Shown piece after piece: positions 1 through 44,457 of a stretch of DNA of 44,457 nucleotides. Position numbers and translations under genes: made by a program. The stretch's first letter is position 1. Every line of letters begins with the position of its first letter. A model generated the notes under the pieces. The model did not search any database and had not been told where the DNA came from. It worked only from the letters and a program-made list of their open reading frames with translations. The DNA comes from a virus, in the IMG/VR virus record IMGVR_UViG_3300017922_000005, positions 1 through 44,457 of that record. One strand, 5' to 3'.

Positions 1-138
1 CATTTTATGCAGCATTCGTTCTTGAACACAATGTGTATCATCACGTAGATAAACTGTATCTGTATGCCATTCAATTCCCACAACTGTCCACATCCTTTTC
101 TCAATTGTATCCCATGCTCTGAATTTAAGTTCTCTCAA
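1..138 (-). CDS. YopX-family protein, partial (runs off the left edge)
   Basis: The visible N-terminus reads LRELKFRAWDTIEKRMW, the typical opening of YopX-type phage proteins, whose molecular role is not well established. It starts at TTG (138-136), which overlaps the TGA of the upstream gene in a TTGA junction, with GGTGAT just before it. The C-terminal part lies outside the window. A second, complete YopX gene lies about 750 bases upstream in the same operon, so this is one of two diverged copies. Family assignment is by motif only. Confidence 0.8.
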   Translation of the reverse strand, partial: MRELKFRAWDTIEKRMWTVVGIEWHTDTVYLRDDTHCVQERMLHKM

Positions 139-527
139 ATCATCACCCCATAAGTTATATCAAACTCTTTTATATCAATGATTTCTATAAGTCCAGCATC
201 GTGAACACAATGTTGTTTTTCAATCTGCTCTCGAAATATTGATGCAGCCTCATGCATATTTGGGGCAACAATTGTCTTATCGAATTCTTCTGATATTACA
301 TTATACATCTTCAATTTGCGCCCTTTATGAGTAGCATCAGTATCTTTTGTTTTCTCATCTTTCTGCCTCTCAAGATATTTATCATACACATCATTACTCA
401 TACGACATACTTTCACATCCCAGTCCATCGACTAAACCATATACCCATACTCTTTTACAAGATTCTGGATAAAATTATGTATCTTGCTGTCAATTTCTTT
501 TGATTCATTTACTTTAATATTGCTCAT
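135..527 (-). CDS. Unknown protein with an in-frame TAG codon
   Basis: This gene is open from ATG 527 to TGA 135 only if the TAG at 434-432 is read as an amino acid (residue 32 of 130). The 31 codons before the TAG start with a plausible ribosome site (AGTGATTGA before the ATG) four bases behind the preceding gene. The ATG two codons after the TAG has no comparable site. The product is hydrophilic with mixed charge and no motif I recognise. The extended frame ends in a TTGA overlap with the next gene, as elsewhere in this operon. The alternative is two separate peptides of 31 and 97 residues, or a nonsense mutation. Confidence 0.7.
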
Positions 528-531
528 TCAA

Positions 532-888
532 TCACTCTTCCCTGTATAGGACGATGGTTGTCATCTTGTCATGTACATATGAAAGTACTTTGCTAATCCC
601 CATTACCGTTGTAACGAAAATCACGGCGAGTCCTGTCGAAAGAGGAAGGGCCTCAGTAATTGTTCTTTTTGGGATGTTATTTGTGGCAAATATCCACCAT
701 ATAGAATATATTACTGAATATATGACGAATATAAGCACTAAAGAAAAGGCGATCCCTCTCAAAATACTCCACGGAGTGATGAAAATATCTCTATCAGGTT
801 CTAATCCAGTATATATTCTATAAGAATATAACATCTCTTCTCCGAATATTGCTAACAATATGTTTTTAACTTTATCTGCAATTTTCAT
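532..888 (-). CDS. Small membrane protein, two predicted TM helices
   Basis: The 118-residue product has a hydrophobic segment near residues 46-68 (containing SLVLIFVIYSVIYSIWW) and a second near 84-101 (containing GLAVIFVTTVMGI). Basic or polar ends flank both. The start codon overlaps the stop of the upstream YopX gene (ATGA), so the two are likely translationally coupled. No enzymatic motif is visible. A role at the host membrane is only an inference from the helices. Confidence 0.75.
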   Translation of the reverse strand: MKIADKVKNILLAIFGEEMLYSYRIYTGLEPDRDIFITPWSILRGIAFSLVLIFVIYSVIYSIWWIFATNNIPKRTITEALPLSTGLAVIFVTTVMGISKVLSYVHDKMTTIVLYREE

Positions 889-1322
889 TCAATCAACTCT
901 GGATTTTCGTAGATGTTTCCAATTATTTCTACTTCGCCTCGTGAAATATATCCACCTGCACAGGAATCTAATGTGACAAAATCACCGTTGCCTACTTCTA
1001 CTGCCCACCTGCCACATTCCCATACAACATGTCGGATACACCACTGTTTATCATTACCGTTCAATGCTATTTTCACAACATCCCCTTCGTAAATCTCCTT
1101 GCCGTTTTTATCACGAAGTCCGGTGAATTGTCCAATTGTTTCAGGTTTGACTACATGTTTTACAGTACCAACAGCCAATGACTTTGTATCGTCATTATCA
1201 ATAATCCATGTGTTATGGGGATCTTGTAGAACTCCTGAACCGTGCACCATTTTGGATTCAAATTTATGCCGCCCAAAATTTTTCGGCGGTTTTGTCATCG
1301 CTCTGAATTTAATTTCTCTCAT
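885..1322 (-). CDS. YopX-family protein
   Basis: The product begins MREIKFRA and carries the family's conserved C-terminal pattern, with IGQFTGLRDKNGKEIYEGD near the middle and IIGNIYENPEL at the end. YopX proteins are common in phages and prophages, but their function is not firmly known. I place the start at ATG 1322, which has GGAGAT at good spacing, rather than the in-frame TTG at 1331. It overlaps the HAD-like gene upstream by 14 bases and the membrane-protein gene downstream by 4. Confidence 0.9.
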   Translation of the reverse strand: MREIKFRAMTKPPKNFGRHKFESKMVHGSGVLQDPHNTWIIDNDDTKSLAVGTVKHVVKPETIGQFTGLRDKNGKEIYEGDVVKIALNGNDKQWCIRHVVWECGRWAVEVGNGDFVTLDSCAGGYISRGEVEIIGNIYENPELIE

Positions 1323-9085: not shown

Positions 9086-10135
9086 TCATTCTATCTTTAC
9101 CTTGATATTCTTTTTAATGTTTTCGTCCTCCACTTCGACGAATTTATCTTGCAACTGTTCCTTCTCCTGAATGTCCAGCATATCCGATGCTATGTGTTCC
9201 AGTGTGTCCTTTACTCCATGGCTTGCATCATGAGAGGACACGGAAGTTATGGCGTTTATAATACCCCACAGGTTGTCGGCATGAGCCCCGTGCATCCTGT
9301 CGTTTATGCGCTTCTTGACTTCCGTGGCTATTTTGCCAGACATCTTTTTCTCCAAGACGTAGTGATCTATCAAGTTGTTGGCTTCCTCTTTGGTAACAAG
9401 GATACTCTTTGCCCTGTCAATGCTTTCCAGTACGTTCCAAGCATTGTCTAATATTTCGCCTACCTTGATAGTAAACTCTTCCAAGAGTTCCTCTTTATTA
9501 CCCAGATGAGTCTCTGTGATGGATTCTTCTGTCTTGTAGGATACCATACCATTTTCGCATTCCAGTCTCTCAAAATAAAGGGAAACTGTTATGCTTCGTG
9601 TACCATATTCATTGTTCTTGATCTGCAATCCGGTAGAGATTATATCCCCGACCTCACCATCCGAAACATTGTCTTTGATAACGTATCGGGTAACATCATA
9701 ACCTCTGGGATAGGTTGTCTTGTACCTCATGGAATCTACTTGAGTTACACCTTCCTGAATCATTATCTCTTCGGCATAGTGTTCCAGTTCTTCCATGTCG
9801 ATAGGTACATAACTACTACCAACAACAGACATGATATCTCCGGTATCCTTCAATCTCCTGAAGATAAGAGGATTATTGTCCTTCCTCATGTGCAGCATCT
9901 CAAGGAATTTGGCATTAGTATTTGGGCAAGCACCATCCTCTTCCATTTCCTTGTCAAAGATTGACTTATACGCTCCGGTCATTCTAAAAAGTTTGGTCAC
10001 TGCAAATCCTTTGAGTTCAAGTGGTCCGTGTACAGTATCCAAAAGCATGTGGTTGTCTCCCACATACTTGGCATCTTCAATCTCGCTTCCCTTAATTTCT
10101 ATATTTTCCCATTTAGTCTCCGGTGGATAATCCAT
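9086..10135 (-). CDS. DUF932-family phage/plasmid-like protein
   Basis: The 349-residue product shows the family's features: VVGSSYVPIDMEEL near residue 110, a central block ending ITVSLYFERLECENGMV near 185-205, then ETHLGN, and a C-terminal WGIINAITSVSSHDAS near 295. DUF932 proteins are frequent in phages, plasmids and archaeal viruses and are tied to DNA metabolism, but their activity is not established. The ATG has GGAGTAAGAGC upstream. Confidence 0.85.
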   Translation of the reverse strand: MDYPPETKWENIEIKGSEIEDAKYVGDNHMLLDTVHGPLELKGFAVTKLFRMTGAYKSIFDKEMEEDGACPNTNAKFLEMLHMRKDNNPLIFRRLKDTGDIMSVVGSSYVPIDMEELEHYAEEIMIQEGVTQVDSMRYKTTYPRGYDVTRYVIKDNVSDGEVGDIISTGLQIKNNEYGTRSITVSLYFERLECENGMVSYKTEESITETHLGNKEELLEEFTIKVGEILDNAWNVLESIDRAKSILVTKEEANNLIDHYVLEKKMSGKIATEVKKRINDRMHGAHADNLWGIINAITSVSSHDASHGVKDTLEHIASDMLDIQEKEQLQDKFVEVEDENIKKNIKVKIE

Positions 10136-10140
10136 TGCTC

Positions 10141-10365
10141 TTACTCCTGTGGTTCTTCTTCGTAGCCTATTCCTAAGAAATACTTCATCATTGCTATAGC
10201 CAAGCCCAGAAAGCTAAATAATATAACAATGAGTCCAATCACAAAGATCGGTGTAACTCCAATCCCTGCACCTATTATGCAAAGCACGACACCAAGCAAA
10301 AACATTGCCCAGCCCTGTACCCACATTATTCTGGGGTCTGTTGACCTAAAGTTCGTGTAATCCAT
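10141..10365 (-). CDS. Small membrane protein, two TM helices
   Basis: The 74-residue product has helices at about 15-35 (GWAMFLLGVVLCIIGAG) and about 39-60 (IFVIGLIVILFSFLGLAI). It ends in an acidic tail. GGAGGTATGAA precedes the ATG. It lies between the DUF932 gene and an HTH/zinc gene. No specific function can be read. Confidence 0.75.
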   Translation of the reverse strand: MDYTNFRSTDPRIMWVQGWAMFLLGVVLCIIGAGIGVTPIFVIGLIVILFSFLGLAIAMMKYFLGIGYEEEPQE

Positions 10366-11659: not shown

Positions 11660-11877
11660 ACAAATTCTCCCTGTTCCATCATTATTGTTTCCAGTAGTCC
11701 TTCTGAATCTATCGTAAATTCCAGTCCACAGTCCGGACAGCAGAGCACGGATTCCATGCCCTCGTAAATCTCTGCCGGATCGTGGTTGAAGTATTGAACC
11801 TCTGCCATGCATTTTGGACAGTACACCGGATATTCAATGTTTATTCTCTTACCGATTATTGCGTAGTCTGTTCCCAT
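11656..11877 (-). CDS. Small zinc-ribbon protein
   Basis: The 73-residue product has VYCPKCMAEV at about 19-27 and LCCPDCGLEF at about 45-53, a two-knuckle zinc ribbon, followed by an acidic end. GGAGGAATAAG before the ATG is a strong ribosome site. It is one of several zinc-ribbon genes in this operon, which suggests a set of nucleic-acid or protein adaptors, though none has a known role. Confidence 0.8.
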   Translation of the reverse strand: MGTDYAIIGKRINIEYPVYCPKCMAEVQYFNHDPAEIYEGMESVLCCPDCGLEFTIDSEGLLETIMMEQGEFV

Positions 11878-12243: not shown

Positions 12244-12535
12244 TGCGCTTTGCCACTAGTTTATAATAACTGTTGTTCCTATCAATGTATTCCTTATTAA
12301 ATGAAATACACCAACCCCTTTCTAAAAAAAGAAAGAAAAAATAAATTAGCATCTTTTTTATATTTTTTCTTTTCTTTTTTGTATTTGGTACTATTGCTAT
12401 TATCTCATTATCTCCTGTTTCTACAATACTGAAACCTTTCTTTTGTAGTTTATCTTTCAAGTCCTCTGTAGTTCTGGTTCCCAAGGACAAGGGTTTCTGG
12501 CACCCTCGTCGTTCGGGCTGAAGGTTTGGGATCAA
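12233..12535 (-). CDS. Unknown protein with TTG start
   Basis: The 100-residue frame starts at TTG 12535, with GGAGG seven bases upstream, and overlaps the TGA of the TAG-containing gene before it (TTGA). The centre (LKDKLQKKGFSIVETGDN) reads as real protein. After a Lys-rich stretch it passes through an A/T-homopolymer tract (IYFFFLFL), which on this strand is T-rich and could also be a terminator, so the C-terminal third is doubtful. A frameshift within the tract is possible. No family is recognised. Confidence 0.45.
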   Translation of the reverse strand: MIPNLQPERRGCQKPLSLGTRTTEDLKDKLQKKGFSIVETGDNEIIAIVPNTKKKRKNIKKMLIYFFFLFLERGWCISFNKEYIDRNNSYYKLVAKRNDL

Positions 12536-12780
12536 TCATCTGCCTCCACGATGTCCACCATAAACATTGTTATTCTACGTGCCTCTTCCAATTTGTCGGT
12601 TTCCCTCTTGAGTTCATTGACCTTCTAACCGATTGCCTTGTCTAGTTCCACGATAAATTCACGGGTGCTGTTTGTCCTCCGTGCTGTCTGTTCAATCAGC
12701 CAAGGCATGTGCTGGGATTGTGCTGTGGCTTCTCCAAGTACGGTATAGACCGATTCAAGATTAATGTTTGCTTTTGCCAT
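12532..12780 (-). CDS. Small helical protein with an in-frame TAG codon
   Basis: The start is ATG 12780, with AGGTGATATC upstream, beginning MAKANINLES. The frame reaches TAG at 12627-12625 after 51 residues and continues in the same frame for 30 more codons (KVNELKRETDKLEEARR...) to TGA. The continuation forms a charged helix that extends the helix before the TAG (FIVELDKAIG). Its end is joined to the next gene by a TTGA overlap, and that gene's GGAGG lies in the continuation. Read with TAG as sense, the protein has 82 residues. The role is unknown. Confidence 0.7.
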
Positions 12781-12784
12781 GATA

Positions 12785-14296
12785 TCACCTGTTGTTGAAT
12801 GCTTCAAGTACCTCGTTCTTTGATCTTATAAACAAATTGTTCCAGTCGTTCCATTGTCTCCCCATCAAGCGCAAGACAAGTCCTTCCCTGCTGGCAAAGA
12901 GTTCATTGTGTTCGGAATACCAGCAGTGAGTATATTCATGGGCAGCCAGCATAAAAATTTCGATTCCGGTGGCTATTTTGCCCTTTGTACTCTCCACGGC
13001 ATTTGGATTGATAAGAAAAACTCTCTTGCTATCCTTCCTGAAGACTTTAGCGTTGCATTCTTTGTCAAAAGTAAATCCAACACCGATTTCTACGTTCTGG
13101 TTGAATTCTTCTTCTATCTTGAGGATTATGTTTGTCCAGTAGTGTAGGATGGTTTGAAGCTTCTTGGAATCTATCTTCATCGGATAGTTCTTGGTGTCTT
13201 CCCTTCTTTCCACCATGAACTCGTATCCCATTGGTCCAATTTCATGCTTGCTTCCTTCCAGCATGTCACTAACCAGCTGTCCAAGTTCCGGAAAGGTGTC
13301 GGATACTTGTTCTTCCACGGCTTTATAGTTAGTTATTCCGCTTGTGGTGTTCTGTGCTGTGATAGCTTCAATAAAGTCCTTCTTATGGTCTGTTACCTCC
13401 GGATGATGAAACTCATTCAGTTTGTCCATCACATTCAGTCCAGCAAAGGTGTCAATTACCATCTGCGGTTTCTTCTCCGTGGCTGATCTGGGATCAACGA
13501 TCATCTCGTTTATCTTTTCATCCAGTTTAGACCTGAATGGATAGACAAGATTATCCCTGTTGGCAGCAAGGAAATTGACGGACTCGCCCTTGAGTTCCAC
13601 ATAAACCGTGGACTCCAAGTTCGGCATCATTCTCCAAAACATAGGAATGCCACGGAGTCTCACGACCATTTTGCTACTCTCAAAGTCCTTGTCCACTATG
13701 AAATCCGCAAGTTCACTGCTCTTCAGAGTACCTTTGACCTTCTCGCATTTGACCTCTTCTCCATCAAGGCAAATTGTTGCCTCTGTGGAAAGGAAAGATA
13801 AAAAGTGTTCAACTTTGTATTTCCAGAAGCCAGCATCATAAATAGAGCCTTCTTCGTACAAATTGATTGATATCTCGGTGCCAATTTTGCATTCAGTCTC
13901 AATGCACCTAATTGGTTCCTTGCCAATCATTTCGTTGTTTATCTCATACAACGTCGTTCCGTCTTGAGAAGATTTAATCGACCATTGACTCCATGCAAAG
14001 AAAAGGATTTCCTTTGCCTTGCCGAATCCGCCAACGGAACCTTCCTTCTTCTGGGAACCACCAAGCACAAGTAACTTGTCACGAATAATGTTTGCGTTCA
14101 TTCCGCAGCCATCATCCACGACAGTTATCGTGTTGGCTTCCTTATCAATATCAATGCTTACCTAACTGGCTCCAGCATCCAGACTGTTCTGAATCGCTTC
14201 ACGAATCCATACCGTTGGTAGATCGTTTGAATAATCTGCTCTGGCATTTTTGCGGAAATAATCAGCACCTATAACAATATCTGCTACTTCTTCCAT
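12785..14296 (-). CDS. GHKL (Hsp90/MutL-type) ATPase fused to an HExxH domain, with an in-frame TAG
   Basis: The gene starts at ATG 14296 behind AAAGGAGGTTTATA, a near-perfect ribosome site, and encodes 503 residues if TAG 14164-14162 (residue 45) is sense. The N-box is REAIQNSLDAGAS with Glu33 and Asn37. Directly after the TAG come VSIDID and the DDGCGM box (about 61-66), then GGFGKA (about 89-94). The C-terminal part holds AAHEYTHCW, an HExxH motif at about 453-457, with SEHNE about 8 residues later, as in zinc metallopeptidases. Without readthrough neither fragment has a whole ATP site. Partner and target are unknown. Confidence 0.85.
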
Positions 14297-14308
14297 TATA
14301 AACCTCCT

Positions 14309-14434
14309 TTAAATCCCAAAAGAAGACATCTCTTTTGGTCTGCTTGTCGCATCCTTATGCTGTGTCCAGTCCATGCTCTCGATGTCAAGGGAGTCGCTCT
14401 CTTTGGCTCCCTTGGCTATCTCCGGCTGGCTGTC
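14309..14434 (-). other. Open frame after a TAA, possible small gene or extension
   Basis: Directly after the TAA of the HTH gene the same frame stays open for 41 codons and ends just before the GHKL ribosome site. The composition is protein-like (EIAKGAKESDSLDIES, then MDWTQHKDATSRPKE). An internal ATG at 14374 could give a 21-residue peptide but has only a weak GAGAGC upstream. It could be a peptide gene, decay of a longer HTH gene, or chance. Confidence 0.35.
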
Positions 14435-15112
14435 TTACTCTTCTGGTGGATAGTCGTATTCGAACCTATCCATGGATTCCGCAACTGCTTCGTCAAATTT
14501 ATCGTTGTTGGCATTCTTGCGGAGTTTGGGGAAGGCTACAGTAATTATCGCTGTTTTGACTTTGCCAAAGTCTTCTCCAAATTTGGACTCTCCCATGAAG
14601 ACTGGTGCGATTCCCTTGATAAAGATGTCTTCAAGGTAGTTGGTCACCTGTTCCAGTTTGTCTTCTGGAAATTCTGCTTCCTCAAGGTATTCCCTGACCT
14701 CCGTGTCAAGGTCTGCGAAAGAATCCTTGTCCTCGGATTCTTCCGGTTCTTCTGTCTTGGGTTCCCTTTTCAGTTCTTTGGTTTCCTTCTCTGCCTTAAC
14801 TGCCGTGGTCTGTGTTTCCACCCTTGCCACCGTAGGCTCACTGAAAGGAGTTGGGAACACATCGTGGAGTTTGACTGGCTCTCCATTTTCATCAAGATAA
14901 TGCTTCTCCTCTGATCTGATATGTCTGCGAATGTTCTGTGTGGAGCACCCGAAATGCTTGGCAATGAGTCTGTAACCCCATGCCTTGGGTTCTTCCATCT
15001 TGTTCTCTTTTCTGTCGTAATAGTTGAGTTCATGCCTGCCAACATAAAGGTCAACTACTTCCTTGTGGTTGATACCGATATGTCCAGATTTTGTGGTCTG
15101 CTCGTTTGTCAT
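14435..15112 (-). CDS. HTH protein with acidic C-terminal part
   Basis: The 225-residue product has an N-terminal helix-turn-helix (GYRLIAKHFGCSTQNIRRHI, about residues 46-65), typical of terminase-small-subunit or regulator HTHs. A Lys/Glu-rich linker (about 105-140) and a compact C-terminal domain (about 145-215) follow. A DNA-binding regulator is likely. GGAGGAACG precedes the ATG. After the TAA the frame stays open for another 41 codons up to the GHKL ribosome site, described separately. Confidence 0.75.
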   Translation of the reverse strand: MTNEQTTKSGHIGINHKEVVDLYVGRHELNYYDRKENKMEEPKAWGYRLIAKHFGCSTQNIRRHIRSEEKHYLDENGEPVKLHDVFPTPFSEPTVARVETQTTAVKAEKETKELKREPKTEEPEESEDKDSFADLDTEVREYLEEAEFPEDKLEQVTNYLEDIFIKGIAPVFMGESKFGEDFGKVKTAIITVAFPKLRKNANNDKFDEAVAESMDRFEYDYPPEE

Positions 15113-15405: not shown

Positions 15406-15592
15406 ACAAATACGATATCGGAATCGTTGAACCGCATCCATAAACATTCTTACTTGCTAACTAATCCTCCATGCATTCCTTACATGAATCGCAATCAACT
15501 CCGATATGCCCTTCAGGTGCCCCACAATCCTTACAAGCGTAGCACTTCCGCACTGCATAACATTGCAATTTATAAGGGCAAGGTTTATGCAA
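15404..15592 (-). CDS. Cys-rich zinc-binding protein, ending at or reading through TAG
   Basis: The gene starts at TTG 15592, with GGAGTGAT five bases upstream. The product has nine cysteines within 40 residues, including KCYACKDCG and DCDSCKECMED, a two-zinc arrangement. TAG at 15463-15461 follows CMED. The frame then runs 18 more codons (including VYGCGSTIP) to TGA. CMED is a natural-looking C-terminus, so here TAG may be a true stop (15461-15592, 43 residues). The extension is short enough to be chance. I give the longer span because TAG is read as sense elsewhere. Confidence 0.55.
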
Positions 15593-15722
15593 CCGAATCA
15601 CTCCTTAACTTTCTTAAGATTGCTGGGAGATCATCCCCATCGGGGAGCTCACGATTGAAGACTTCATCCTCTACGTCATGATCAACTTTCTTGCGCCTGT
15701 GTGGAGACAATCCTTGCCTCAT
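15585..15722 (-). CDS. Unknown small charged protein
   Basis: This 45-residue gene begins MRQGLSPHRRKK and has an acidic centre (DHDVEDEVFNRELPDGDD). Its ATG overlaps the TGA of the upstream gene (ATGA), and its end contains the ribosome site of the Cys-rich gene. No family is recognised. Confidence 0.6.
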   Translation of the reverse strand: MRQGLSPHRRKKVDHDVEDEVFNRELPDGDDLPAILRKLRSDSVA

Positions 15723-16005: not shown

Positions 16006-16449
16006 TCACTCCTCCAGTAATCCGTGATTCCCACGAATTTCGTATGTTGATTTGCCAAATTTGCGTGCCCACTTAAATATCTGGTCTGCGCAATCCGGTT
16101 TATTTATATCGTCCTTTATGCAATGAATGCTGTCAGAATCAAATGGCTCGTCAAAAGGGATGCATGCTGTATCAATTCCGCATTCCTCGACCAAATCGTA
16201 TAAGTCCTCACTGCGCATCTCATCAAGCGTCATTGCCCTGCCTATCAAGTCTGCCCATGCAACTTGGGCAATCTCGTCATACACGGAGTAACCCACGAAT
16301 TGAAACTTGACCTCCGACATTTCAATAAAAGTTGGCTCATGGCAGATGCCCACATCGACATCATCACCATTATGCAAACGGAATCTCAAAATGTGTGTGG
16401 CAACTTCGTCATATCGATAATACCCACGATCCTTGTCCTCATTATTCAT
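16006..16449 (-). CDS. Unknown acidic protein
   Basis: The 147-residue product is acidic and contains four cysteines, spread rather than paired (for example EECGIDTACIPF and NKPDCADQ). No domain is recognised. GGAGGATGCATA precedes the ATG, which overlaps the TAA of the gene upstream by one base. It belongs to the part of the operon closest to the control region, so it is probably expressed early. Confidence 0.65.
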   Translation of the reverse strand: MNNEDKDRGYYRYDEVATHILRFRLHNGDDVDVGICHEPTFIEMSEVKFQFVGYSVYDEIAQVAWADLIGRAMTLDEMRSEDLYDLVEECGIDTACIPFDEPFDSDSIHCIKDDINKPDCADQIFKWARKFGKSTYEIRGNHGLLEE

Positions 16450-16643
16450 TATGCATCCTCCATTATAATCTCGACTACGGTTTCACCAACATCGCCTGCT
16501 GGATCATCCTCATCACGGGTGAACACACGAATTTGTTTCACGCCTGCAAGGGAATCCTTGTTCAGGTTAAATTCATCATGCTTGTCGCTGAAAGTCACGT
16601 GCTTGGTGACTTGCCTAACTGTAAATTGACGTTTCTCTCCGAT
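16449..16643 (-). CDS. Small unknown protein with apparent ATC start
   Basis: The frame is open from a TAA at 16664 to TAA 16449 and has no ATG, GTG or TTG except an internal GTG at 16598. AGGAG lies nine bases before ATC 16643. Starting there gives MGEKRQFTVRQVTKHVTFSD..., which matches the opening of the 57-residue gene at 15143-15316 (MG, a TK..V.FS core). This supports ATC as the start. A sequencing difference (ATG to ATC) is the alternative. The product has 64 residues with a beta-rich end (TVVEIIME). Confidence 0.6.
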   Translation of the reverse strand: MGEKRQFTVRQVTKHVTFSDKHDEFNLNKDSLAGVKQIRVFTRDEDDPAGDVGETVVEIIMEDA

Positions 16644-16690
16644 AGTTTCACGCTCCTGTTGTTAATTTCACGGTTGCTTCATGCTTCACT

Positions 16691-16822
16691 TCACGCCTGC
16701 GATTTCACGCAATCGTGAAGGACGTCCGAATGCGCAACCACACGCATCCGGATTCCGTCCCATGAATCCTTGTCCTCGTGAATGAATGGGGTCAGATCAA
16801 ACTGCCCCACCATTCGACTCAT
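16691..16822 (-). CDS. Unknown small protein
   Basis: The gene encodes 43 residues (MSRMVGQFDL..., then EDKDSWDGIRMRVV). It starts seven bases after the upstream stop, with no strong ribosome site (ACTCAGA). It lies in a stretch where coding DNA is rich in CGTGA and GAATTC-like words, unlike the rest of the operon. No family is recognised. Confidence 0.5.
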   Translation of the reverse strand: MSRMVGQFDLTPFIHEDKDSWDGIRMRVVAHSDVLHDCVKSQA

Positions 16823-17639: not shown

Positions 17640-17850
17640 GATGGGAGCGGGTTGCGCTGATCCGGAACCGAACCGGAACCGAACCAGCATGCCGCCCCAT
17701 CCCTCGGCAATCAACCCGATGAGGTGGGCGCTCGTGCTGTGATCGCTATCGGGCGCCATCGGCAATGGTTTGCTGGTGCTATGCGATGGCGGCAGAGGTC
17801 GGTGGCGGGGTTGAATCGGCATCGGAATCCGATGTCCGGTGGGGTTTGCT
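17640..17850. other. GC-rich palindromic segment of the control region
   Basis: This stretch is far richer in G and C than its surroundings and has no credible gene. CGCCATCG (17754-17761) pairs with CGATGGCG (17784-17791), with an inner GCAA/TTGC stem. CATCGG (17820-17825) pairs with CCGATG (17829-17834) over three bases. It lies upstream of the first leftward gene, so it could be a structured leader RNA, an operator cluster or part of an origin. Confidence 0.5.
17662..17683. repeat. Tandem 11-base direct repeat
   Basis: CCGGAACCGAA occurs twice in direct succession. The CCGGAA core recurs in the AT-rich half of the control region, so the whole region may share one binding motif. Confidence 0.7.
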
Positions 17851-17891
17851 AGAGGAAATAAGAATCTGATTGCCGATATTCGTCGTTTGTG

Positions 17892-18086
17892 AAACCGGAA
17901 AAATAATTCTAATTGAGTACAAAAAAGGGGAACCACTTGTTTGATTTTACAAATGTAGTCAGCAATTTAATTCCGACATAATAAGAAACCGGAATCTGAT
18001 TGCTGTTTGTATTTTCGTAAACCAAATAAAAGAATTAGTTAACTAGTAAACCGGAAATTAAAAAATAATTAACTAGTAAACCAGAA
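17892..18086. repeat. Iteron-like AAACCGGAA repeats
   Basis: AAACCGGAA occurs at 17892, 17986 and 18048, with the variant AAACCAGAA at 18078 and AAACCGATT at 18121. Copies at 18048 and 18078 are embedded in a 14-base repeat, TTAACTAGTAAACC, at 18039-18052 and 18069-18082, exactly 30 bases apart. GAATCTGATTGC also occurs twice (near 17864 and 17993). This density fits an origin or regulator-binding array in AT-rich DNA. Confidence 0.6.
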
Positions 18087-18160: not shown

Positions 18161-18250
18161 TATGAAATATTATATAGATTAGGTACTTCGTAATAATGAG
18201 TTTATAGGGCGTATGAAATATTCTATAAATTAGGTACTTAGTGGTAATTA
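18161..18250. repeat. Direct repeat of about 38 bases containing TATA-like boxes
   Basis: TATGAAATATTATATAGATT (from 18161) and TATGAAATATTCTATAAATT (from 18212) each continue with AGGTACTT. The copies are 51 bases apart. On the minus strand they contain CTATATAATA and TTTATAGAATA, which resemble archaeal TATA boxes. They may be a duplicated promoter for leftward transcription or part of the origin. No reliable gene overlaps them. Confidence 0.55.
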
Positions 18251-18321
18251 TTTTGATTCTCATTCTAAGTGAGAACATACACAATACATCAAATCTTACA
18301 AAAAACAAAACCTTCTTATTT

Positions 18322-18468
18322 ATGAAGTGTCTTATTATACATAATTATCAAGGACAAGGAATTAGAGCATATTATGCTGAAAATATGAGTACACACCCAT
18401 CAATCGATTTAATCAAGTGTTATGCGTTTGATGGGGATGATCTATGTGGGTTATTTACGGTTAAATAG
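18322..18468 (+). CDS. Unknown small protein, apparent TAG stop
   Basis: The 48-residue product (MKCLIIHNYQGQGIRAYY...) looks protein-like and has three cysteines. No clear ribosome site precedes the ATG, which follows an AT-rich stretch, so it could be leaderless. The frame meets TAG at 18466-18468, then a second TAG three codons later, and TAA after 11 codons. If real and terminated here, it is a counter-example to TAG being sense throughout. It overlaps the end of a minus-strand frame. Confidence 0.45.
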   Translation: MKCLIIHNYQGQGIRAYYAENMSTHPSIDLIKCYAFDGDDLCGLFTVK

Positions 18469-18741
18469 ATAGGATAGCATAATTCCTTCAACAACAATTA
18501 AACATGCAAATGCTACACCTATTAATGGATTATTTGGATCATATTTCAATTCAGAAAATTGAAATAAAAATAATGCTTGTATTATTTTATATATCATGTA
18601 AAATACTAAATCTCATGAAATTCCATGAAATACAATATAATATGACCCCATATAATCCCACATGGCACCAATAAATATTGCACCAATAAATACTACACGA
18701 TATTTTATTAGGTACCCAAGGGTATTTCCTATTACCAGCAT
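18451..18741 (-). pseudogene. Membrane protein gene interrupted by TGA
   Basis: The frame from ATG 18741 to TAA 18451 has 96 codons with one TGA at 18615-18613 (codon 43). On both sides the translation is strongly hydrophobic: VVFIGAIFIGAMWDYMG before, LVFYMIYKIIQALFLF and IGVAFACLIVVEGIML after. This predicts three membrane helices. A Trp codon changed to TGA (GIS-Trp-DLVF) would explain it. Most other genes here stop at TGA, so readthrough is unlikely and a decayed gene is the simpler reading. Confidence 0.5.
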
Positions 18742-20242: not shown

Positions 20243-20995
20243 ATAACAACACCAGTAAGAACATTTCACTGTAAGACAGGAAATATAAATAGAATACATG
20301 AAGTAATGGTGAGAACCATCCTGAATGAAGGCGAAGATATTGTCTTTGGAGATGCAAAAGAGCAGAAACACGCACGAAATATTTATGGTATACTGATTCT
20401 GGAAAGACCAGCCATTGTAAAAGCCATAGATAAAACTCCGGAAATGTATCCATGGGGAGGCAAGAAAGCCAGAATATTTAGGGATGAATTCCTTGCTGAT
20501 TGTAGGAGACTGGAAGTAAGCAAACAGGGATTTGATTACACATATCCAGACCTATTGAAATGCTTCCCTGCTAAGAATTCAGAATATGGAATGAATCAAT
20601 TTTACGTATCCCTCGATAAATTGAGAGAGGATATGAAAACTGGCATTAGCAGCAACAGAAATATTGGTGTACTCTATAATCCTTGTACTATGTATGAAAT
20701 GAAAAATCTTCCATGTTTCAATGAATTCCAAATAGTATATGAAGGCAATGCAAAAGGTTCTTTGAGACTGACTTTCCGTTCCCATGATTGGGGAACTGCT
20801 GTATGGGCGAATGTAATGTCCATTGCCAATGCTTTCAATGAATTGGTATTTAAGCCAGCAGACTGTAAGCTTGATAATATTATTATTAATTCTTATTCTG
20901 CCCACATATATAAAAACGATATGGGGTATTATGAAAAGATGTTAAATTCTAAAACTGCAAGAATGAAACAGGCAATATCCAGGACGATAAAATGA
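20243..20995 (+). CDS. Thymidylate synthase-like protein with apparent ATA start
   Basis: From ATA 20243 the product has 250 residues. Visible family features are LPCFNEFQ with Cys158 as likely nucleophile, FRSHDW (Arg179, Asp182) for phosphate and dUMP contacts, WANV with Asn190 in the position that favours dUMP, and SAHIY near 219-223. It would make dTMP from dUMP, or hydroxymethylate a pyrimidine nucleotide. AGGAGG lies seven bases before the ATA. The next in-frame ATG (20306) has no site and would remove PVRTFHCKTGN and the first helix. The end overlaps the MazG-like gene. Confidence 0.8.
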   Translation: MTTPVRTFHCKTGNINRIHEVMVRTILNEGEDIVFGDAKEQKHARNIYGILILERPAIVKAIDKTPEMYPWGGKKARIFRDEFLADCRRLEVSKQGFDYTYPDLLKCFPAKNSEYGMNQFYVSLDKLREDMKTGISSNRNIGVLYNPCTMYEMKNLPCFNEFQIVYEGNAKGSLRLTFRSHDWGTAVWANVMSIANAFNELVFKPADCKLDNIIINSYSAHIYKNDMGYYEKMLNSKTARMKQAISRTIK

Positions 20996-21306
20996 ATAGA
21001 TTATTACACGAAAAAGTGATTGAAGATACCGTAACACTCCGGAGTACGGAAGAGCATGAAAGAGCCGTACACGAAGAAACTTCTGAACTTTCCATGACCA
21101 TTGCTCATCATGCCCGTGGAAGAACTACTCTTGGTGAAGTCATGAAAGAAGTGGCAGATGTAATTCTTGCATGTGAAGTCTTTCTGGCTGCTAATAATAT
21201 AGATCAGGAAAGTTTCGACCTTGTAATGAATGATGAATTGAAACGCATGGACATGAAAAATAAGTCACTCAAAGTCCAGAAATCAGGACCTACCTTTTCT
21301 GATTGA
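20992..21306 (+). CDS. MazG-like NTP pyrophosphohydrolase
   Basis: The 104-residue product shows the all-alpha NTP-PPase core: HEETSEL (Glu29, Glu32) and KEVADVILA (Glu53, Asp56), the E-x2-E and E-x2-D set that binds magnesium. Such enzymes cleave dNTPs or alarmone-like nucleotides to monophosphates. Next to a thymidylate synthase-like gene it may supply dUMP or shape the nucleotide pool. The ATG overlaps the upstream TGA. Confidence 0.82.
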   Translation: MNRLLHEKVIEDTVTLRSTEEHERAVHEETSELSMTIAHHARGRTTLGEVMKEVADVILACEVFLAANNIDQESFDLVMNDELKRMDMKNKSLKVQKSGPTFSD

Positions 21307-31788: not shown

Positions 31789-32934
31789 ATGACGTACAGA
31801 AACTCAATACAGACAATTGGAGACCTTGAATCCCTCTACTATGGAGACCTCTTCTCCAAGCAGTACATGCAGAAAAGCGATGCGCCAATGCTTACTTCCA
31901 CCTCTGGTATTTACAACCAGATTTATGGTGCAAAGGTTTGGGTAAACCTGAATCTTGAAGCCAATGCATTTGGTATGTTGAACAAGACTCCTTGGAAACA
32001 GTCCGGTTGGAGGCTTATCACAACCCGTGCTCTCGGAACTTCTGGAAGCGGTGGAGTTGCTGAAAATGCTGCACTTCCAGATACCACAAAACCCACCTTC
32101 AAAGAGGTCGCTACCAAACCCAAGACCGTTGCACACACCTTCGACAGTTCCGAAGTCATGCAGTACATGGGTACAGTGGACGATTCCCTTGGAGATGTTA
32201 TGGGAGTTCTGCGTGAACACATGGCAAAGGAACATGCAGAACAGATCAACAAGATGCTCCTGAAAGATGCTTCTGCTGAAGCCGCAGCAGCCAGTGGAGA
32301 CCGTGCTGCAGCCGACATGTACAATATCGAATCCCTTGACCGTATAGTGTCCAGTGATGCAGAAGAAGACGCATTTGGTGGAACCTATAATGGTTGGTTC
32401 GATGTATTCAGCCTTGATAGGGATTCCACAACTGACTACGATGCACAGGTCAGCCACAACTCTGGTACAGACCGTTCCTTGTCCTTGTCCCTCATTGATA
32501 GTATGTTCACCAACCTGTGGACTGCTGGTGGAAATCCAAAGGTCATTATGACCGGATATGACTCCCTCATGGCAACCCAGCAACTCTTGCAGGCACAGCA
32601 GAGATTCATGGACACCAAGAGAGTAACACCTTCCGTAAACGGTATTAAAGGTGTAGATGGTGTGGATGCAGGATTCGTTGTTGCAACATACAATGGTGTT
32701 CCATTCATACCATCCAAAGACATGTGTCAGGATACCCTTTCAAGGATGTTCTTCCTCGATACCGACTATCTGGAAATGAGAATTGCAAAACCAACCCAGT
32801 ATTTCGAGTCCGGTATCCTTTCTGGAAACCCCTTCGGAATTAACCGTCTTGGTCAGGAAGGACTTTACCGTACAATGGGTGAAGCAACCTGCCAGTGGTT
32901 TGGCGTACAGGGTAAGATCAGGGATTTGCAGTAA
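31789..32934 (+). CDS. Major capsid protein (HK97-fold type)
   Basis: 381 residues, following protease-scaffold as usual. Features include an N-terminal arm (IQTIGDLESLYYGDLFSK), a Gly/Ser/Ala-rich region (RALGTSGSGGVAENAAL), a long spine-helix candidate (MGVLREHMAKEHAEQINKML), and KVIMTGYDSLMATQQLL near the middle. The codon usage is the most even and GC-rich of the late genes, as expected for a highly expressed protein. GGAGGAGAATAAAC precedes the ATG. Confidence 0.9.
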   Translation: MTYRNSIQTIGDLESLYYGDLFSKQYMQKSDAPMLTSTSGIYNQIYGAKVWVNLNLEANAFGMLNKTPWKQSGWRLITTRALGTSGSGGVAENAALPDTTKPTFKEVATKPKTVAHTFDSSEVMQYMGTVDDSLGDVMGVLREHMAKEHAEQINKMLLKDASAEAAAASGDRAAADMYNIESLDRIVSSDAEEDAFGGTYNGWFDVFSLDRDSTTDYDAQVSHNSGTDRSLSLSLIDSMFTNLWTAGGNPKVIMTGYDSLMATQQLLQAQQRFMDTKRVTPSVNGIKGVDGVDAGFVVATYNGVPFIPSKDMCQDTLSRMFFLDTDYLEMRIAKPTQYFESGILSGNPFGINRLGQEGLYRTMGEATCQWFGVQGKIRDLQ

Positions 32935-32968
32935 TTGCATCCCCATCAATCCTTTTTGGAGGATTTAG

Positions 32969-33289
32969 ATGAACGATCCAATAGCGACTGTAAAATATAT
33001 GGGCACTCTGGATGGGTTAACACATAAGAACCCAATAACCGGAAATGTCCATAAATTTGCAGGTAAGAATGTCCCTGCGAAATTGTACGATTCTCGTGAT
33101 GTCGATTATTACAAGACTAAAAATCATTTCAAGGTAACACTTATTGAGAAAAAGGAAGAACCTGCTCCAATTTCTAAAGAAGATACCAAGGAAGACACGA
33201 AGAAGAGTGCCCAGACCAGACGTTCCAGTACAGCCCGAAAGACCAAAGCGAGCAAAACAAAAAGCTCAACGAAGGCTAAAAAGGAGTGA
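32969..33289 (+). CDS. Unknown small head protein with basic Lys/Ser tail
   Basis: 106 residues. A compact N-terminal domain (TVKYMGTLDGLTHKNP, then FKVTLIEKKEE) is followed by a tail of about 35 residues rich in Lys, Thr, Ser and Arg. The tail resembles histone-like or DNA-binding tails, and the gene lies directly after the capsid gene. A head-joining or DNA-contacting role is inference. GGAGGATTTAG precedes the ATG. Confidence 0.65.
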   Translation: MNDPIATVKYMGTLDGLTHKNPITGNVHKFAGKNVPAKLYDSRDVDYYKTKNHFKVTLIEKKEEPAPISKEDTKEDTKKSAQTRRSSTARKTKASKTKSSTKAKKE

Positions 33290-34586: not shown

Positions 34587-35273
34587 ATGCCTCGTACTGT
34601 TTTACCTGTTGAAAATTGTGTTTTCAGATTAGACTCCAAGTATGGGTTTAATCAGCAGTTCCCGATGACATTCAATGATGTTGAATTATCAGAAGATGGG
34701 TTTGAATTTGATGGCATAAATAGTTGGATTTCTTTTCCTAGTATCCCTACACGAATGTGGGATATGACTATCCATTTAAGGATGATTTGGAATGGAAATG
34801 GTAATGACAACGATAGTCTCCAACAAATAATAGGGAATAATGATAGGTACAATGAATGGATAGCAATACAGGAGATTGATAACGGTTATACATATATGGA
34901 AGATGGTATGAATTCAAATGCATACCAGTTAGATACTTATACACTTCGGATAGATGTGGGTGTTATTTATGATATATTCATAAGTTTAGGAGAAAATAAT
35001 TATAAAGTACTTCTAAATGGTGAATTTGTAAGGGAAACTGAAAAAGCAGATAGATATAATTTTAATATTAATGCAATTGGTGGAAGGCCAGATGATAGAC
35101 GTTTTGAAGGAATTATATCACTTGTAGAAATATATTATCGTGCATATACCGTGCAAGAAATGAAAGACAGATACAACCAGAGTACATTCTTATTCCTGAA
35201 TAATACACCAACACCCACCCAGCAGGCATATCTTGACTGGCAGAATAGCAGAATAATTGGGAGGTCACGATAA
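34587..35273 (+). CDS. LamG/concanavalin-like surface protein, copy 1
   Basis: 228 residues with a jelly-roll-like strand pattern: GFEFDGINSWISFP at the start, GNNDRYNEWIAIQ in the middle, YKVLLNGEFV, and EIYYRAYTVQEMKDRYNQ at the end, the usual LamG closing strand and helix. LamG domains bind sugars or host-surface ligands. It is the first of three such genes in a row. Confidence 0.75.
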   Translation: MPRTVLPVENCVFRLDSKYGFNQQFPMTFNDVELSEDGFEFDGINSWISFPSIPTRMWDMTIHLRMIWNGNGNDNDSLQQIIGNNDRYNEWIAIQEIDNGYTYMEDGMNSNAYQLDTYTLRIDVGVIYDIFISLGENNYKVLLNGEFVRETEKADRYNFNINAIGGRPDDRRFEGIISLVEIYYRAYTVQEMKDRYNQSTFLFLNNTPTPTQQAYLDWQNSRIIGRSR

Positions 35274-36034
35274 TGACACGGACACTTGAAGAATTGAGAG
35301 AATATTTGGTTGGAGAATGGAAATTTGATAATAACTTCCTTGATACATCTGGAAATGGTAACCATGGTACTCCTACTGATATTGAATGGAAACCTACAAG
35401 TAGAGGGCTGAAACCACATATTAAAATAGGAAATACTGTGTCTATGAATGAAATTGTGTTATCTCCTAATGATTCCACAATTTCACTTTGGGTTGCCAAT
35501 TTTAAAAAAATTGATAGTAATTATAATGACCATCATTATATTTTATCTAAAAATGATAGATATAGAAATTATATTGCAATCAGTTCAACTGGAAGTATTG
35601 CAATTGAATCTGATGTTAATGGGGATATATTTGGAATTGCAACTACAGGAACATTTCCATTTGACTTCAGGCCACATCAAATAACTGTTACTGCATCAAA
35701 TGCTGTAACCCAAATTTATTTGGATGGGATACCTGTTAATATGACTGGTATTAATGCAGATGCAGAAGTTAAATTGACAAACATTGGTTGTATCACGGAA
35801 CAAAATGATACGTCTCCTGATTGTACAGTATGTGGCATATTGCACTATTCCACTGCCCTAACATCAGATGAAGTCCTCAACCTATACAACTCCACCAAAA
35901 ACGCTGTCGGTGTACGACCTGCCGAAAGAAGTTTTACTCACAGACTGCAACCTGACGTAGATGACAACACCGTATTTGCTACTGACATGAGTACCAAGAA
36001 TAGCGATGGTACGCTCATGGATTTAAGTTGGTGA
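35273..36034 (+). CDS. LamG/concanavalin-like surface protein, copy 2
   Basis: 253 residues. LamG hallmarks are LVGEWKFDNNFLDTSGNGNH at the start, SKNDRYRNYIAIS in the middle (matching copy 1), IYLDGIPVN, and YSTALTSDEVLNLYN near residue 200. A second opening (VFATDMSTKNSDGTLMDLSW) sits at the C-terminus and reads like the first strand of another LamG domain, which the next gene continues (MGNNHATVYGAA). It is joined to copy 1 by TAATG. Confidence 0.78.
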   Translation: MTRTLEELREYLVGEWKFDNNFLDTSGNGNHGTPTDIEWKPTSRGLKPHIKIGNTVSMNEIVLSPNDSTISLWVANFKKIDSNYNDHHYILSKNDRYRNYIAISSTGSIAIESDVNGDIFGIATTGTFPFDFRPHQITVTASNAVTQIYLDGIPVNMTGINADAEVKLTNIGCITEQNDTSPDCTVCGILHYSTALTSDEVLNLYNSTKNAVGVRPAERSFTHRLQPDVDDNTVFATDMSTKNSDGTLMDLSW

Positions 36035-38667: not shown

Positions 38668-39684
38668 GTGAGTATATTCAGAAGTGAGCAATATAGACTT
38701 GCTCTAACACCATGTGAAAATGCATTCGGTTATAAAACCGGAACTACAGCATGGGGAGTTGCCGATGGAGCTTATCCGGTTGGACTCCTCAAAGGATATG
38801 AACCTCCAGACCCCGAAATCGAATGGAAGGATTTCAAACAGATAGGTGTAGCCTCTAGTAGGAACATTGAGACTTTGGTTCAAGGTCCATTTTCTCTATC
38901 CGGCAATATTCCATTCACCATTCAGGATGCCCGTATGATTGCACTGGCATTTGGTTCCGATTCTGTGTCAGGTTCAGCTGATCCATATACCCACACAATC
39001 AAACCTGCAGACGAACTCCCAAGTTTCGGAGCAGTAGTCTCCAGACTTACATCCGGAGTCGGTAATGATTATAACCGGATTTATTCCGGACTCAAAGTTG
39101 ATCAATTAAGTCTTGCTGCCGAATCTTCCGGAGAGCTTAAAGCTTCGGTTACGGTACAGGGACAGAACGTCACCCAAGACAATGCTTCCGATGCTCCGGA
39201 CGTGACCGCCCTTGACGACGAGCCATATTGGTTCTATCAGTCCACCATAACTTTCTGGTCAGCAGAGATTGGTAGATTACAATCCTTCGAAATGACACTT
39301 TCCAATAATATTGATGGAAAAAGATACTTCAAGACCGCACCAGTAAATTCCGTTTCCGAACTTCTGGAAGGTGGAAGACAATTCTCCCTCAAAGCAGATA
39401 TCGCAATTGATGATATGACCATATATGATAAACTCATCAATGGCACCAACTTTGATATCTCCCTGTACTTTGAAAGGGCTTCCGGAGACACCTTAAAAAT
39501 CAGTTCCGATATTTCCCTTGATATGCAGACCTTAGACGGGGGAGCCAATAACTGTTATATTAGCAAAGCACCACACAGCGTGCCCGATTCCAATGAAGTG
39601 GTCGTACCTGTAGAAATAATCATGAAGAATGCTTATGCAGTAATCGAAAACGATTACGCAACATCATACGTAGCACTCGCATAA
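38668..39684 (+). CDS. Major tail tube protein
   Basis: 338 residues starting with GTG behind AGGAGACTAAAA. The middle is rich in strands (IETLVQGPFSLSGNIPFTI, SGELKASVTVQGQNVT), and it ends in a long beta-rich part (VVVPVEIIMKNAYAVIEND), as in phage tail tube proteins. The position before the frameshifted chaperone genes supports this. It is larger than usual, so it may carry an extra surface domain. Confidence 0.82.
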   Translation: MSIFRSEQYRLALTPCENAFGYKTGTTAWGVADGAYPVGLLKGYEPPDPEIEWKDFKQIGVASSRNIETLVQGPFSLSGNIPFTIQDARMIALAFGSDSVSGSADPYTHTIKPADELPSFGAVVSRLTSGVGNDYNRIYSGLKVDQLSLAAESSGELKASVTVQGQNVTQDNASDAPDVTALDDEPYWFYQSTITFWSAEIGRLQSFEMTLSNNIDGKRYFKTAPVNSVSELLEGGRQFSLKADIAIDDMTIYDKLINGTNFDISLYFERASGDTLKISSDISLDMQTLDGGANNCYISKAPHSVPDSNEVVVPVEIIMKNAYAVIENDYATSYVALA

Positions 39685-42062: not shown

Positions 42063-43954
42063 GTTATACATTAACAGTAGATGGTACCTCCTTTGGTGAA
42101 GTATATAGATTTTCAGCAAAGAAAGAAAATAATCAGGTCAGTGAAGCCGAAATTGAATGTTATGATTTAGATGCTACACAGGAAGGCAAAATTGTATACG
42201 GTAATTGGGTTGTTCTCAATAATGGCACACGAGACATGTGGAAAGGCATCATCGTTGATTATAAATATGGTGTGGATGGTGATGTATATCTGCTCAAATG
42301 TGAAGGTTTCGAAGTCAAACTCTTCTCCCGTATAAGTTATGACGAAACATCCACTGATGGAAGGATGGAATGGACAAACACATCTATGAATACAATCATC
42401 ACTGAACTTATTGATGGGGTGATATCCATAGGTACACTGGATGCAGACCTTCCAGCAATTTCTTTCCGTGCTGAATATGATTCCATTCTCGGTGCCCTTT
42501 CCGGTCTAGCAAGAATTGCTGGCAAAGACTGGTGGGTTTCCGAATCTGCAGGTATTCTGTATTTTAATATGTCAGACAGAGGTTCTGCAACTTCCCAGCA
42601 AACCTTTACCATGGGTAGTGATTCACACAGGGAAGAAGAAGAACAGAATCTCAATGATGTGTATAATGTATTATATGTCTTGGGTTATGGAGATGGAATT
42701 AATCAATTACGTGGACAAGGATTGGGAGCGGTTACGGACAGAGCCACTTTGAGTGCCGACATAACGGAGACTGATACTTCTTTAACTATATCGGACACAT
42801 CCTTTTTGAGTGTCGGAGATACTATTTGGATAGGTAGAGAAAAATGCGAAATTGCAAGTGTGGTTTCTCCTACAGAACTCACCGTAACCAGAGGTGTCAA
42901 CTCCGATAAGATAAGTCCTTATCCTCATAAATCAGGAATCCTTGTGTACAGTGCTGAATACACGGAATCTACCCCACAAACATCCTCATCAATCGACGTT
43001 AATGGGATTCAGGAAAATCGATATATTGATAGGTCAATTACAGACCAGAATACCATAGATAGACTTGCCGATAAATTAATTCAAAAATATGAAGATTCCG
43101 GAATATCCGGCAAATTTGAATATCTGGGAGATAATTTATCTGCTGATGTGGGTGATGTAATAACCATTGTGGATTATGATGGTTCATCTACAGAAAGAGT
43201 TCTCAAATCTTGGTCATATTCCGAAGAGACTGCAAGTTTTGAAATTGTATATATAAGTAAGGGAGTCTTTGAAGATAAGATTGTTTCTCTGGAAAAGAAT
43301 ATGGATGTTAACAATCCATACGGTCAGGGTTCCACAAATATTTTCCAGATTCAATCTTACGAAAATTGCGATTCTTCATCGCCCTTGCACGTACGATTTA
43401 GGATACCTGATGATGTTATTGCTATAAATAAAGTATTACTTTCCTTTAAGAGACAGCCCTTTCGTTTGTATTCAAAACAAATAACTTCCGATGGTGACCA
43501 TAACCATAATTCGTATTTTAGTATGGCACCTAAAGGTTCCAGTGATTTTGATCAAGCAAGTGATATTATATATCTAATGGGAGCAATAGATAATTATAGT
43601 GGTATAATCGTATCTGGTAATGATACTAGTATATCTAAATCAGTTGCCAACGCTACTTCCAATGTTTCCCACACACATCCAATACTACTTGGTATAAATA
43701 ATGACACAGGCTTTTCTACCACTCATGGAGTAATTATAGAAGCTGGAGAAGATGGTAGTGTTACATCTGTTTCTGGTTCTCCATTTACAACAGATGAAAA
43801 TGAAATAAATATACTTTCTCATGTAGGAGAGGCTGGCAAATGGTATGATATAGTATTTACACCAGAACAATATGTTAGTGGTGAAAATACTTATGATAGG
43901 ATAATGAGAATAGAAGCCAATGTATATGTGAAATGTTTTATTAGGAGCAATTAA
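42059..43954 (+). CDS. Large tail-hub / baseplate protein
   Basis: 631 residues. The N-terminal 380 look like a phage tail hub: strand-rich opening (YTLTVDGTSFGEVYRFSA), FEVKLFSRISYDETST, GIIVDYKYGVDGDVYLL, and DRLADKLIQKYEDSG before GDVITIVDYDG. The C-terminal 230 residues are beta-rich with repeated small turns and several His residues (SDGDHNHNSYFSM). These may belong to a receptor-binding or chaperone-type domain. It starts in an ATGA overlap. Confidence 0.78.
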   Translation: MSYTLTVDGTSFGEVYRFSAKKENNQVSEAEIECYDLDATQEGKIVYGNWVVLNNGTRDMWKGIIVDYKYGVDGDVYLLKCEGFEVKLFSRISYDETSTDGRMEWTNTSMNTIITELIDGVISIGTLDADLPAISFRAEYDSILGALSGLARIAGKDWWVSESAGILYFNMSDRGSATSQQTFTMGSDSHREEEEQNLNDVYNVLYVLGYGDGINQLRGQGLGAVTDRATLSADITETDTSLTISDTSFLSVGDTIWIGREKCEIASVVSPTELTVTRGVNSDKISPYPHKSGILVYSAEYTESTPQTSSSIDVNGIQENRYIDRSITDQNTIDRLADKLIQKYEDSGISGKFEYLGDNLSADVGDVITIVDYDGSSTERVLKSWSYSEETASFEIVYISKGVFEDKIVSLEKNMDVNNPYGQGSTNIFQIQSYENCDSSSPLHVRFRIPDDVIAINKVLLSFKRQPFRLYSKQITSDGDHNHNSYFSMAPKGSSDFDQASDIIYLMGAIDNYSGIIVSGNDTSISKSVANATSNVSHTHPILLGINNDTGFSTTHGVIIEAGEDGSVTSVSGSPFTTDENEINILSHVGEAGKWYDIVFTPEQYVSGENTYDRIMRIEANVYVKCFIRSN

Positions 43955-43955
43955 T

Positions 43956-44303
43956 ATGGCAGTAATACCAAAAAGTAATATAAAATTTCCGGATGGTTCA
44001 ACATTACAAGATATATATGATGCTATAAATAGCGGTAGCGGTGGTGTCACTGTTTGTACTTCTACTACTAAACCTACATCACCGTCAGAAGGTGATCTAA
44101 TTTATGTCACAGATAATGCGGCAGGTAAAGAACTTGAACATTATGATGGGTCATCATGGCAAACAGTAAATGACAATTCTGGGCTTGTACAGAACCCAAT
44201 GACATCTGATTTAGATACTGGTGGTTACAAAATATATAATGATAGTGGTGCTGTCACATTTGAATCAAGTATAGGTGTATTTACATTCCAAAAGAGTTCC
44301 TGA
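43956..44303 (+). CDS. Putative tail-fibre-type protein
   Basis: 115 residues, Gly/Ser/Thr rich: FPDGSTLQDIYDAINSGSGG, then TKPTSPSEGDLIYVTDNAAG and YDGSSWQTVND. This is the sort of sequence found in fibre or fibre-tip segments. It lies two bases after the tail-hub gene. The receptor is unknown. Confidence 0.65.
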   Translation: MAVIPKSNIKFPDGSTLQDIYDAINSGSGGVTVCTSTTKPTSPSEGDLIYVTDNAAGKELEHYDGSSWQTVNDNSGLVQNPMTSDLDTGGYKIYNDSGAVTFESSIGVFTFQKSS

Positions 44304-44309
44304 GGTTAA

Positions 44310-44457
44310 ATGATGGTTTTATATACGGTTGGGTCAAAGGCTAACGTTGGTTATGTACAGGTACTACATGAACCGGGTGACAGTTGTGACTATTACGGTA
44401 CACTTATATCTGCATCAAATAAATATTGTCTATTTGTAAATACAAAAAATCCTTCCA
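44310..44457 (+). CDS. Unknown protein, partial (runs off the right edge)
   Basis: The frame opens at ATG 44310 or ATG 44313, behind GAGGTTAA, and stays open to the edge. It reads VLYTVGSKANVGYVQVLHE and is likely another tail or fibre protein from its place. Confidence 0.6.
   Translation, partial: MMVLYTVGSKANVGYVQVLHEPGDSCDYYGTLISASNKYCLFVNTKNPS

Follow-up and report, generated by a model that had tools for sequence, protein, structure and literature searches.

In-frame TAG codons in a probable methanogen virus point to decoding with host-supplied pyrrolysine

Does a virus that almost never ends a gene in TAG read this triplet as an amino acid and, if so, which amino acid, and with whose machinery? 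The question is raised by IMGVR_UViG_3300017922_000005, a single virus record of 44,457 bases that was analysed over its whole length (the window). A first-pass annotation had described TAG as nearly absent as a stop codon in this stretch and had proposed that it serves as a sense codon, as in pyrrolysine-using archaea. Stop codon counts bore out the first statement, and the second was supported by a TAG inside a conserved ATPase domain and by pyrrolysine (pyl) genes in the likely host group. As one explanation for all of the data, we consider it probable that the window holds the greater part of a head-tail virus genome, that this virus infects a methylotrophic methanogen, most likely Methanohalophilus or a close relative in the Methanosarcinaceae, and that its TAG codons are read as pyrrolysine (Pyl) supplied by the host. 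We also lean towards the wider statement that the virus is written throughout in the pyrrolysine code of its host, with no TAG terminators, with in-frame TAGs and with no decoding transfer RNA (tRNA) of its own.

Stop codons were counted in two ways. In a mechanical count of open reading frames (ORFs), the coding strand was counted at length thresholds of 80, 60 and 40 amino acids and compared with the opposite strand at 80; genes in the window lie on the minus strand below about 18.1 kilobases (kb) and on the plus strand above. At 80 amino acids or more, all 60 coding-strand ORFs ended in TAA (25) or TGA (35) and none in TAG, whereas TAG ended 7 of the 57 ORFs on the other strand (Fisher p = 0.005). 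Lower thresholds gave 3 TAG ends in 81 coding-strand ORFs of at least 60 amino acids and 8 in 122 of at least 40. Four of these eight (11709-11837, 17779-17922, 32783-32968 and 38714-38845) were rejected as noise, because larger ORFs on that strand contain or cross them.

The second count used a purpose-made gene caller based on codon usage, run with the standard code and with each of TAG, TGA and TAA in turn as sense. The standard code gave 68 genes in the window: 35 ended in TGA, 30 in TAA and 3 in TAG. The three TAG-ended genes (432-527, 12625-12780 and 14162-14296) all continue in frame past their TAG (432-434, 12625-12627 and 14162-14164) to a TGA, as the first-pass annotation had seen. 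Re-calling with TAG as sense, which it had proposed as a check, raised the total score from 2181 to 2198; the score was 1818 with TGA and 2010 with TAA as sense. The relative IMGVR_UViG_3300006807_000001 (G001) has 56,499 bases, is 93-99% identical to the window over the aligned pieces and was taken as a complete genome because of its perfect 123-base terminal repeat. TAG ended 3 of its 84 called genes, at the identical three sites and at no others, and among 18 genes called in the G001 sequence that is missing from the window, none has a TAG at its end or in its interior. The depletion of TAG as a terminator (3/68 in the window and 3/84 in G001, all continuing in frame) is that expected of a TAG-decoding genome. 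In distantly related viruses, the same caller found TAG ends in 12 of 80 (G009), 5 of 46 (G007) and 8 of 60 genes (Caudoviricetes sp. vir519), or 11-15%.

TAG is the rarest stop codon in many genomes, and its scarcity here could be due to chance or to this ordinary rarity. However, at the TAG rate of the opposite strand, 0 of 60 has a probability of 4e-4 and 0 of 81 a probability of 2.5e-5, and comparison with two of the distantly related viruses gave Fisher p = 1.5e-4 and 8e-4. Base composition cannot account for the depletion either, because TAG makes up 17.5% of the stop triplets in intergenic window DNA and occurs off-frame inside genes 357 times. Chance would also leave the TAG within the ATPase domain unexplained, and we regard it as very improbable.

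This TAG stands at codon 45 of a GHKL (MutL-like) ATPase gene (Table 1). When it is translated with TAG as sense, residues 31-117 match HATPase_c_3 (PF13589, E 9.5e-10); the TAG is residue 45, inside the ATP-binding domain, and the alignment with MutL spans the TAG, where MutL has an arginine. A blind PF13589 search of the virus record returned a single match with one internal TAG, and the result was the same in both other records carrying the gene. The GHKL ATPase is thus a case of an in-frame TAG within conserved coding sequence, and its conserved domain is intact only if the TAG is read through. The ATG at 14296 is preceded at the proper distance by the Shine-Dalgarno (SD) sequence GGAGGT, and GTG 14119, the first start past the TAG, has none. 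Between two strains, the part of the gene after the TAG carries 4 nonsynonymous (about 1100 sites) and 11 synonymous (274 sites) changes and, judging from these counts, is under purifying selection; the part before the TAG carries 3 and 2, respectively, too few to judge.

These observations bear on the explanation that avoidance of TAG stops is a habit of the host and nothing more, and that nonsense mutation accounts for the three in-frame TAGs, with the GHKL gene broken or shortened and the others being short ORFs beside separate genes. The excess of synonymous changes past the GHKL TAG and the lack of an SD sequence at GTG 14119 argue against it, and a pyrrolysine-using host would read through a TAG in an expressed gene anyway. 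We consider this explanation improbable.

No homologues of the GHKL protein were found in phages. Matches were found in 52 of 111 genomes of the candidate host family, the strongest at E 1e-5 and nearly all of them short and in the region of the ATPase motif. Because these matches were short and weak, no close homologue was available to tell which residue stands in place of the TAG. A lysine derivative at the position of the MutL arginine is chemically plausible, and we saw no sign of a catalytic role for this residue. An AlphaFold model of the read-through protein, made without an alignment, was unusable (mean predicted local distance difference test score 31). Near its C terminus the protein has an HEYTH (HExxH-type) motif, possibly a metalloprotease-like part.

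The other two in-frame TAGs lie in small genes. The gene at 12532-12780 shows 30 codons of coding character past its TAG and then a TGA that overlaps a downstream ATG; it has no known homologue, and reading its TAG as sense is plausible. The gene at 135-527, also without a homologue, is a weaker case whose TAG is perhaps read as sense; it was given less weight because the same arrangement of a TAG followed by an ATG looks like a true stop in a virus contig of G063, a genome from the candidate host family. At all three sites, TAG was found in every record examined that covers them and no record had a different codon; the pattern of each site was found in two other contigs only. The expectation that gene callers using the standard code break several genes here holds surely for one gene (GHKL) and probably for three.

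Further candidates for TAG-sense genes were rejected. Three TAGs are read through in 885-1490, but it overlaps the gene 1309-1620; the extensions of 9086-10324 and 32783-33289 run only over neighbouring genes; 18162-18272 is a 36-codon ORF with two TAGs and a score barely above the threshold; and 18241-18501 has two TAGs at its end. Altogether the virus has 5 in-frame TAGs in 13,335 codons, 2 of them in the doubtful 36-codon ORF, which is far from many.

Table 1. Positions of the features discussed; coordinates are those of the window unless a G047 locus is named
Feature	Position	Strand	Basis or remark
GHKL (MutL-like) ATPase gene, 503 codons, one in-frame TAG at codon 45	12785-14296	-	PF13589 match, MutL alignment, substitution counts
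In-frame TAG of GHKL gene, most likely pyrrolysine	14162-14164	-	TAG in every record examined that covers the site
Shine-Dalgarno sequence GGAGGT before ATG 14296	14302-14307	-	Next in-frame start after TAG (GTG 14119) without SD
Small gene, 82 codons, in-frame TAG 12627-12625	12532-12780	-	Extension score 9.5 over 30 codons; SD AGGTGAT
Gene of 130 codons, in-frame TAG 434-432	135-527	-	SD-like site before ATG 527, none before ATG 428
Small Cys-rich ORF ending in TAG	15461-15601	-	Ambiguous, possibly true TAG stop; not taken by caller
Small ORF ending in TAG, overlaps convergent ORF	18322-18468	+	Ambiguous; not taken by caller
Terminase	22367-23908	+	Pfam and PHROG matches
Portal	23893-26157	+	Pfam and PHROG matches
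HK97-type capsid protein	31789-32934	+	Pfam and PHROG matches
G047 gene with internal TAG, DUF7289/DUF7308 protein	L123 16297-16545		
G047 gene with internal TAG, GNAT acetyltransferase	L125 5204-5452		
G047 gene with internal TAG, DinB-type (IMS) polymerase	L127 1883-2590		

Pfam, PHROG and profile matches in the window identified a terminase, a portal, a prohead protease, an SU10/HK97-type capsid protein, a minor tail protein, a family B DNA polymerase and a thymidylate synthase, and by its predicted terminase, portal and capsid protein the virus belongs to the Caudoviricetes. In the phage collection the capsid protein matched 9 records at 28-33% identity, 8 of them haloarchaeal virus records and one with a Methanofastidiosa host. 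Among 237 genomes of the class of the candidate host, one (G063) had a relative of the capsid protein, 41% identical and located on a virus contig. The best model for the thymidylate synthase was the methanogen model TIGR03283, with a score under the model cut-off.

ARAGORN found no tRNA in either the window or G001, the complete relative, and hence no suppressor tRNA encoded by the virus. Because the virus has no tRNA, the decoding must come from the host. Recoding of TAG to glutamine is common in gut phages, and TAG might likewise stand here for another amino acid (Gln, Lys or Tyr) through a suppressor tRNA, an explanation with which the arginine of MutL at the GHKL position would also agree. 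The missing tRNA argues against this, as do the very small number of in-frame TAGs, unlike that of recoded phages, and the capsid relatives and gene content, which indicate archaea. Insertion of another amino acid is, in our estimate, very improbable.

The host is likely Methanohalophilus, and a pyrrolysine-bearing member of the Methanosarcinaceae is more likely still, on the basis of sampling site, gene content and codon usage. The metagenome 3300006807, the source of G001, is given among the accessions of a paper on hydraulically fractured shale, whose excerpts credit Methanohalophilus with a pyrrolysine tRNA and a G+C content near 42% (PMC5497025); the G+C of G001 is 40%. We assigned the genus name to the group of genome G049 from the CRISPR (clustered regularly interspaced short palindromic repeats) repeat printed for M. 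euhalobius and strain RSK in the same excerpts (PMC5497025). In G049, tRNA-Pyl (pylT), pylS, pylB, pylC and pylD are clustered together, and PylS was above the curated cut-off in 8 of 8 genomes of its genus. The complete set that the first-pass annotation had asked to be looked for in virus or host is present in the candidate host genus where the cluster was examined, and the sources named above tie the virus to this genus by inference, with no spacer match. In relative synonymous codon use, the virus correlated at 0.955 with G047, 0.927 with G049 and 0.948 with G063.

TAG use in the candidate hosts was counted in ten 20-kb stretches per genome, with genes called in the same way as for the virus. 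TAG ended 3 of 187 called genes in G047 and 4 of 218 in G049. The three in G047 are in-frame TAGs (Table 1), which leaves the G047 sample with no gene that simply terminates at TAG. Scarcity of TAG is thus a habit of the host itself and not a peculiarity of the virus. It fits the pattern of other pyrrolysine-using archaea: excerpts of PMC4153887 give TAG stops of about 4-5% for Methanosarcina and of 1.6% for 'Ca. Methanomethylophilus alvus', the latter with 16 further genes carrying in-frame ambers, and remark that an in-frame amber codon in such archaea becomes a stable mutation.

From these data we infer read-through with pyrrolysine as the inserted residue, as follows. PylB, PylC and PylD of the host would make pyrrolysine, PylS would charge tRNA-Pyl (anticodon CUA), and the host ribosome would insert pyrrolysine at viral UAG codons. 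In such a host, TAG terminators would give extended proteins, and TAG would be purged as a stop in virus and host alike, while TAGs arising within genes would be tolerated as sense. Codon 45 of the GHKL gene, at least, would be read in this way, 12625-12627 probably and 432-434 perhaps.

Several points weigh against pyrrolysine decoding or against the proposed host. The roughly 13,300 codons contain no more than three in-frame TAGs, of which a single one makes a compelling case, and the relatives that retain them are near-identical strains; the small number of cases and their retention in such strains are also what nonsense mutations would leave. The gene at 135-527 has an ATG one codon past its TAG, again as expected of a short ORF beside a separate gene. 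One of 28 genes on the related virus contig in G063 has a TAG end that appears to be a true stop. On this contig (C48, L103), the frame past the TAG of a tail gene runs into the gene 16012-16701, which has its own ATG and which we take to be DUF2829/Tad2-like, with a possible anti-defence role. Because that frame continues into a separate gene, coding signal past a TAG is insufficient as proof of read-through. None of the four TAG ends in G049 is followed by coding signal; they may be genuine stops, or the genes may have been miscalled. Two small viral ORFs, 15461-15601 and 18322-18468, may truly end in TAG; neither matched a Pfam family, 15461-15601 had no PHROGs match, and both remain the real ambiguities that the first-pass annotation had taken them to be. 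Codon use fits G063, another family member, nearly as well, and is thus better evidence for the family than for the genus. The suggested match of CRISPR spacers to methanogens with pyl genes failed: none of 69 spacers (G049, G043) matched the virus in full, the longest match being 18 bases with one mismatch (spacers of 35-37 bases; up to 13 bases in a control with reversed spacers). A 40-base match of 85% in G045 was rejected as a spacer, because it appears to lie in normal coding sequence where repeats were not seen. A DNA search of the 111 family genomes with all but the last 4.5 kb of the virus gave only short, weak matches. Neither of the outcomes named beforehand as speaking against pyrrolysine, a host without pyl genes or many TAG-ended genes, turned up.

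If pyrrolysine decoding is correct, the virus would require pyrrolysine and the pyl genes as an obligate host factor, which would also lock its host range, and viral gene expression would depend on an amino acid linked to the methylamine metabolism of the host. Viruses with in-frame TAGs could be assigned to pyrrolysine-using hosts from sequence alone, and the annotation of methanogen viruses would need a pass with TAG as sense. No description of pyrrolysine in viral genes was found in the titles and abstract openings of the open-licence papers returned by the literature searches. Pyrrolysine codes in archaea and TAG-recoded phages are each already known; viral genes that rely on the pyrrolysine of the host would be the new part.

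Some further features of the genome were observed. Tail-module genes at 34715-35866 have no DNA alignment to G001, which has different genes there, and the stretch is a hypervariable module, perhaps for receptor binding. The thymidylate synthase gene (20306-20995) differs from that of G001 by 33 nonsynonymous and 63 synonymous changes in 227 codons, far above the neighbouring genes, which suggests exchange by recombination. G001 also encodes, at 13454-14503 (minus strand) and outside the window, a short adenylosuccinate-synthetase-like protein with GSEGKG, compared with GDEGKG in host PurA. Serine in place of aspartate is a hallmark of PurZ-type proteins. The protein scored 226 bits with the PurZ model NF038379 (cut-off 300) and 242 bits with the archaeal PurA model PRK04293 (cut-off 368), and it also matched phrog_1211 (2-aminooxy adenylosuccinate synthetase). 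Together with a weak MazG-type match in the window (20992-21306, plus strand), this PurZ-like protein hints at a possible 2-aminoadenine (Z) genome in a methanogen virus.

Among known viruses, HVTV-1, HCTV-1/5 and Caudoviricetes sp. vir519 have major capsid proteins 28-33% identical to that of the window virus over 95-98% of the length, and the family B DNA polymerase is related to that of haloviruses; vir519 differs in that 8 of its 60 called genes end in TAG. TAG-recoded bacteriophages (code 15, TAG as Gln) share the avoidance of TAG stops and the in-frame TAG, whereas the window virus has no suppressor tRNA, very few in-frame TAGs and, probably, an archaeal pyrrolysine-using host. Kivenson and colleagues reportedly described in 2025 an archaeal genetic code in which all TAG codons are pyrrolysine; TAG would be sense genome-wide in methanogens in both cases, in cellular genomes there and in a virus here. 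Of the systems compared, the pyrrolysine-using archaea Methanosarcina spp. and 'Ca. Methanomethylophilus alvus', as presented in the excerpts of PMC4153887, share with the virus the rare TAG stops and the in-frame ambers in conserved genes outside the methylamine methyltransferases. Those are cells with pyl genes of their own, whereas the virus, having none, would depend on those of its host.

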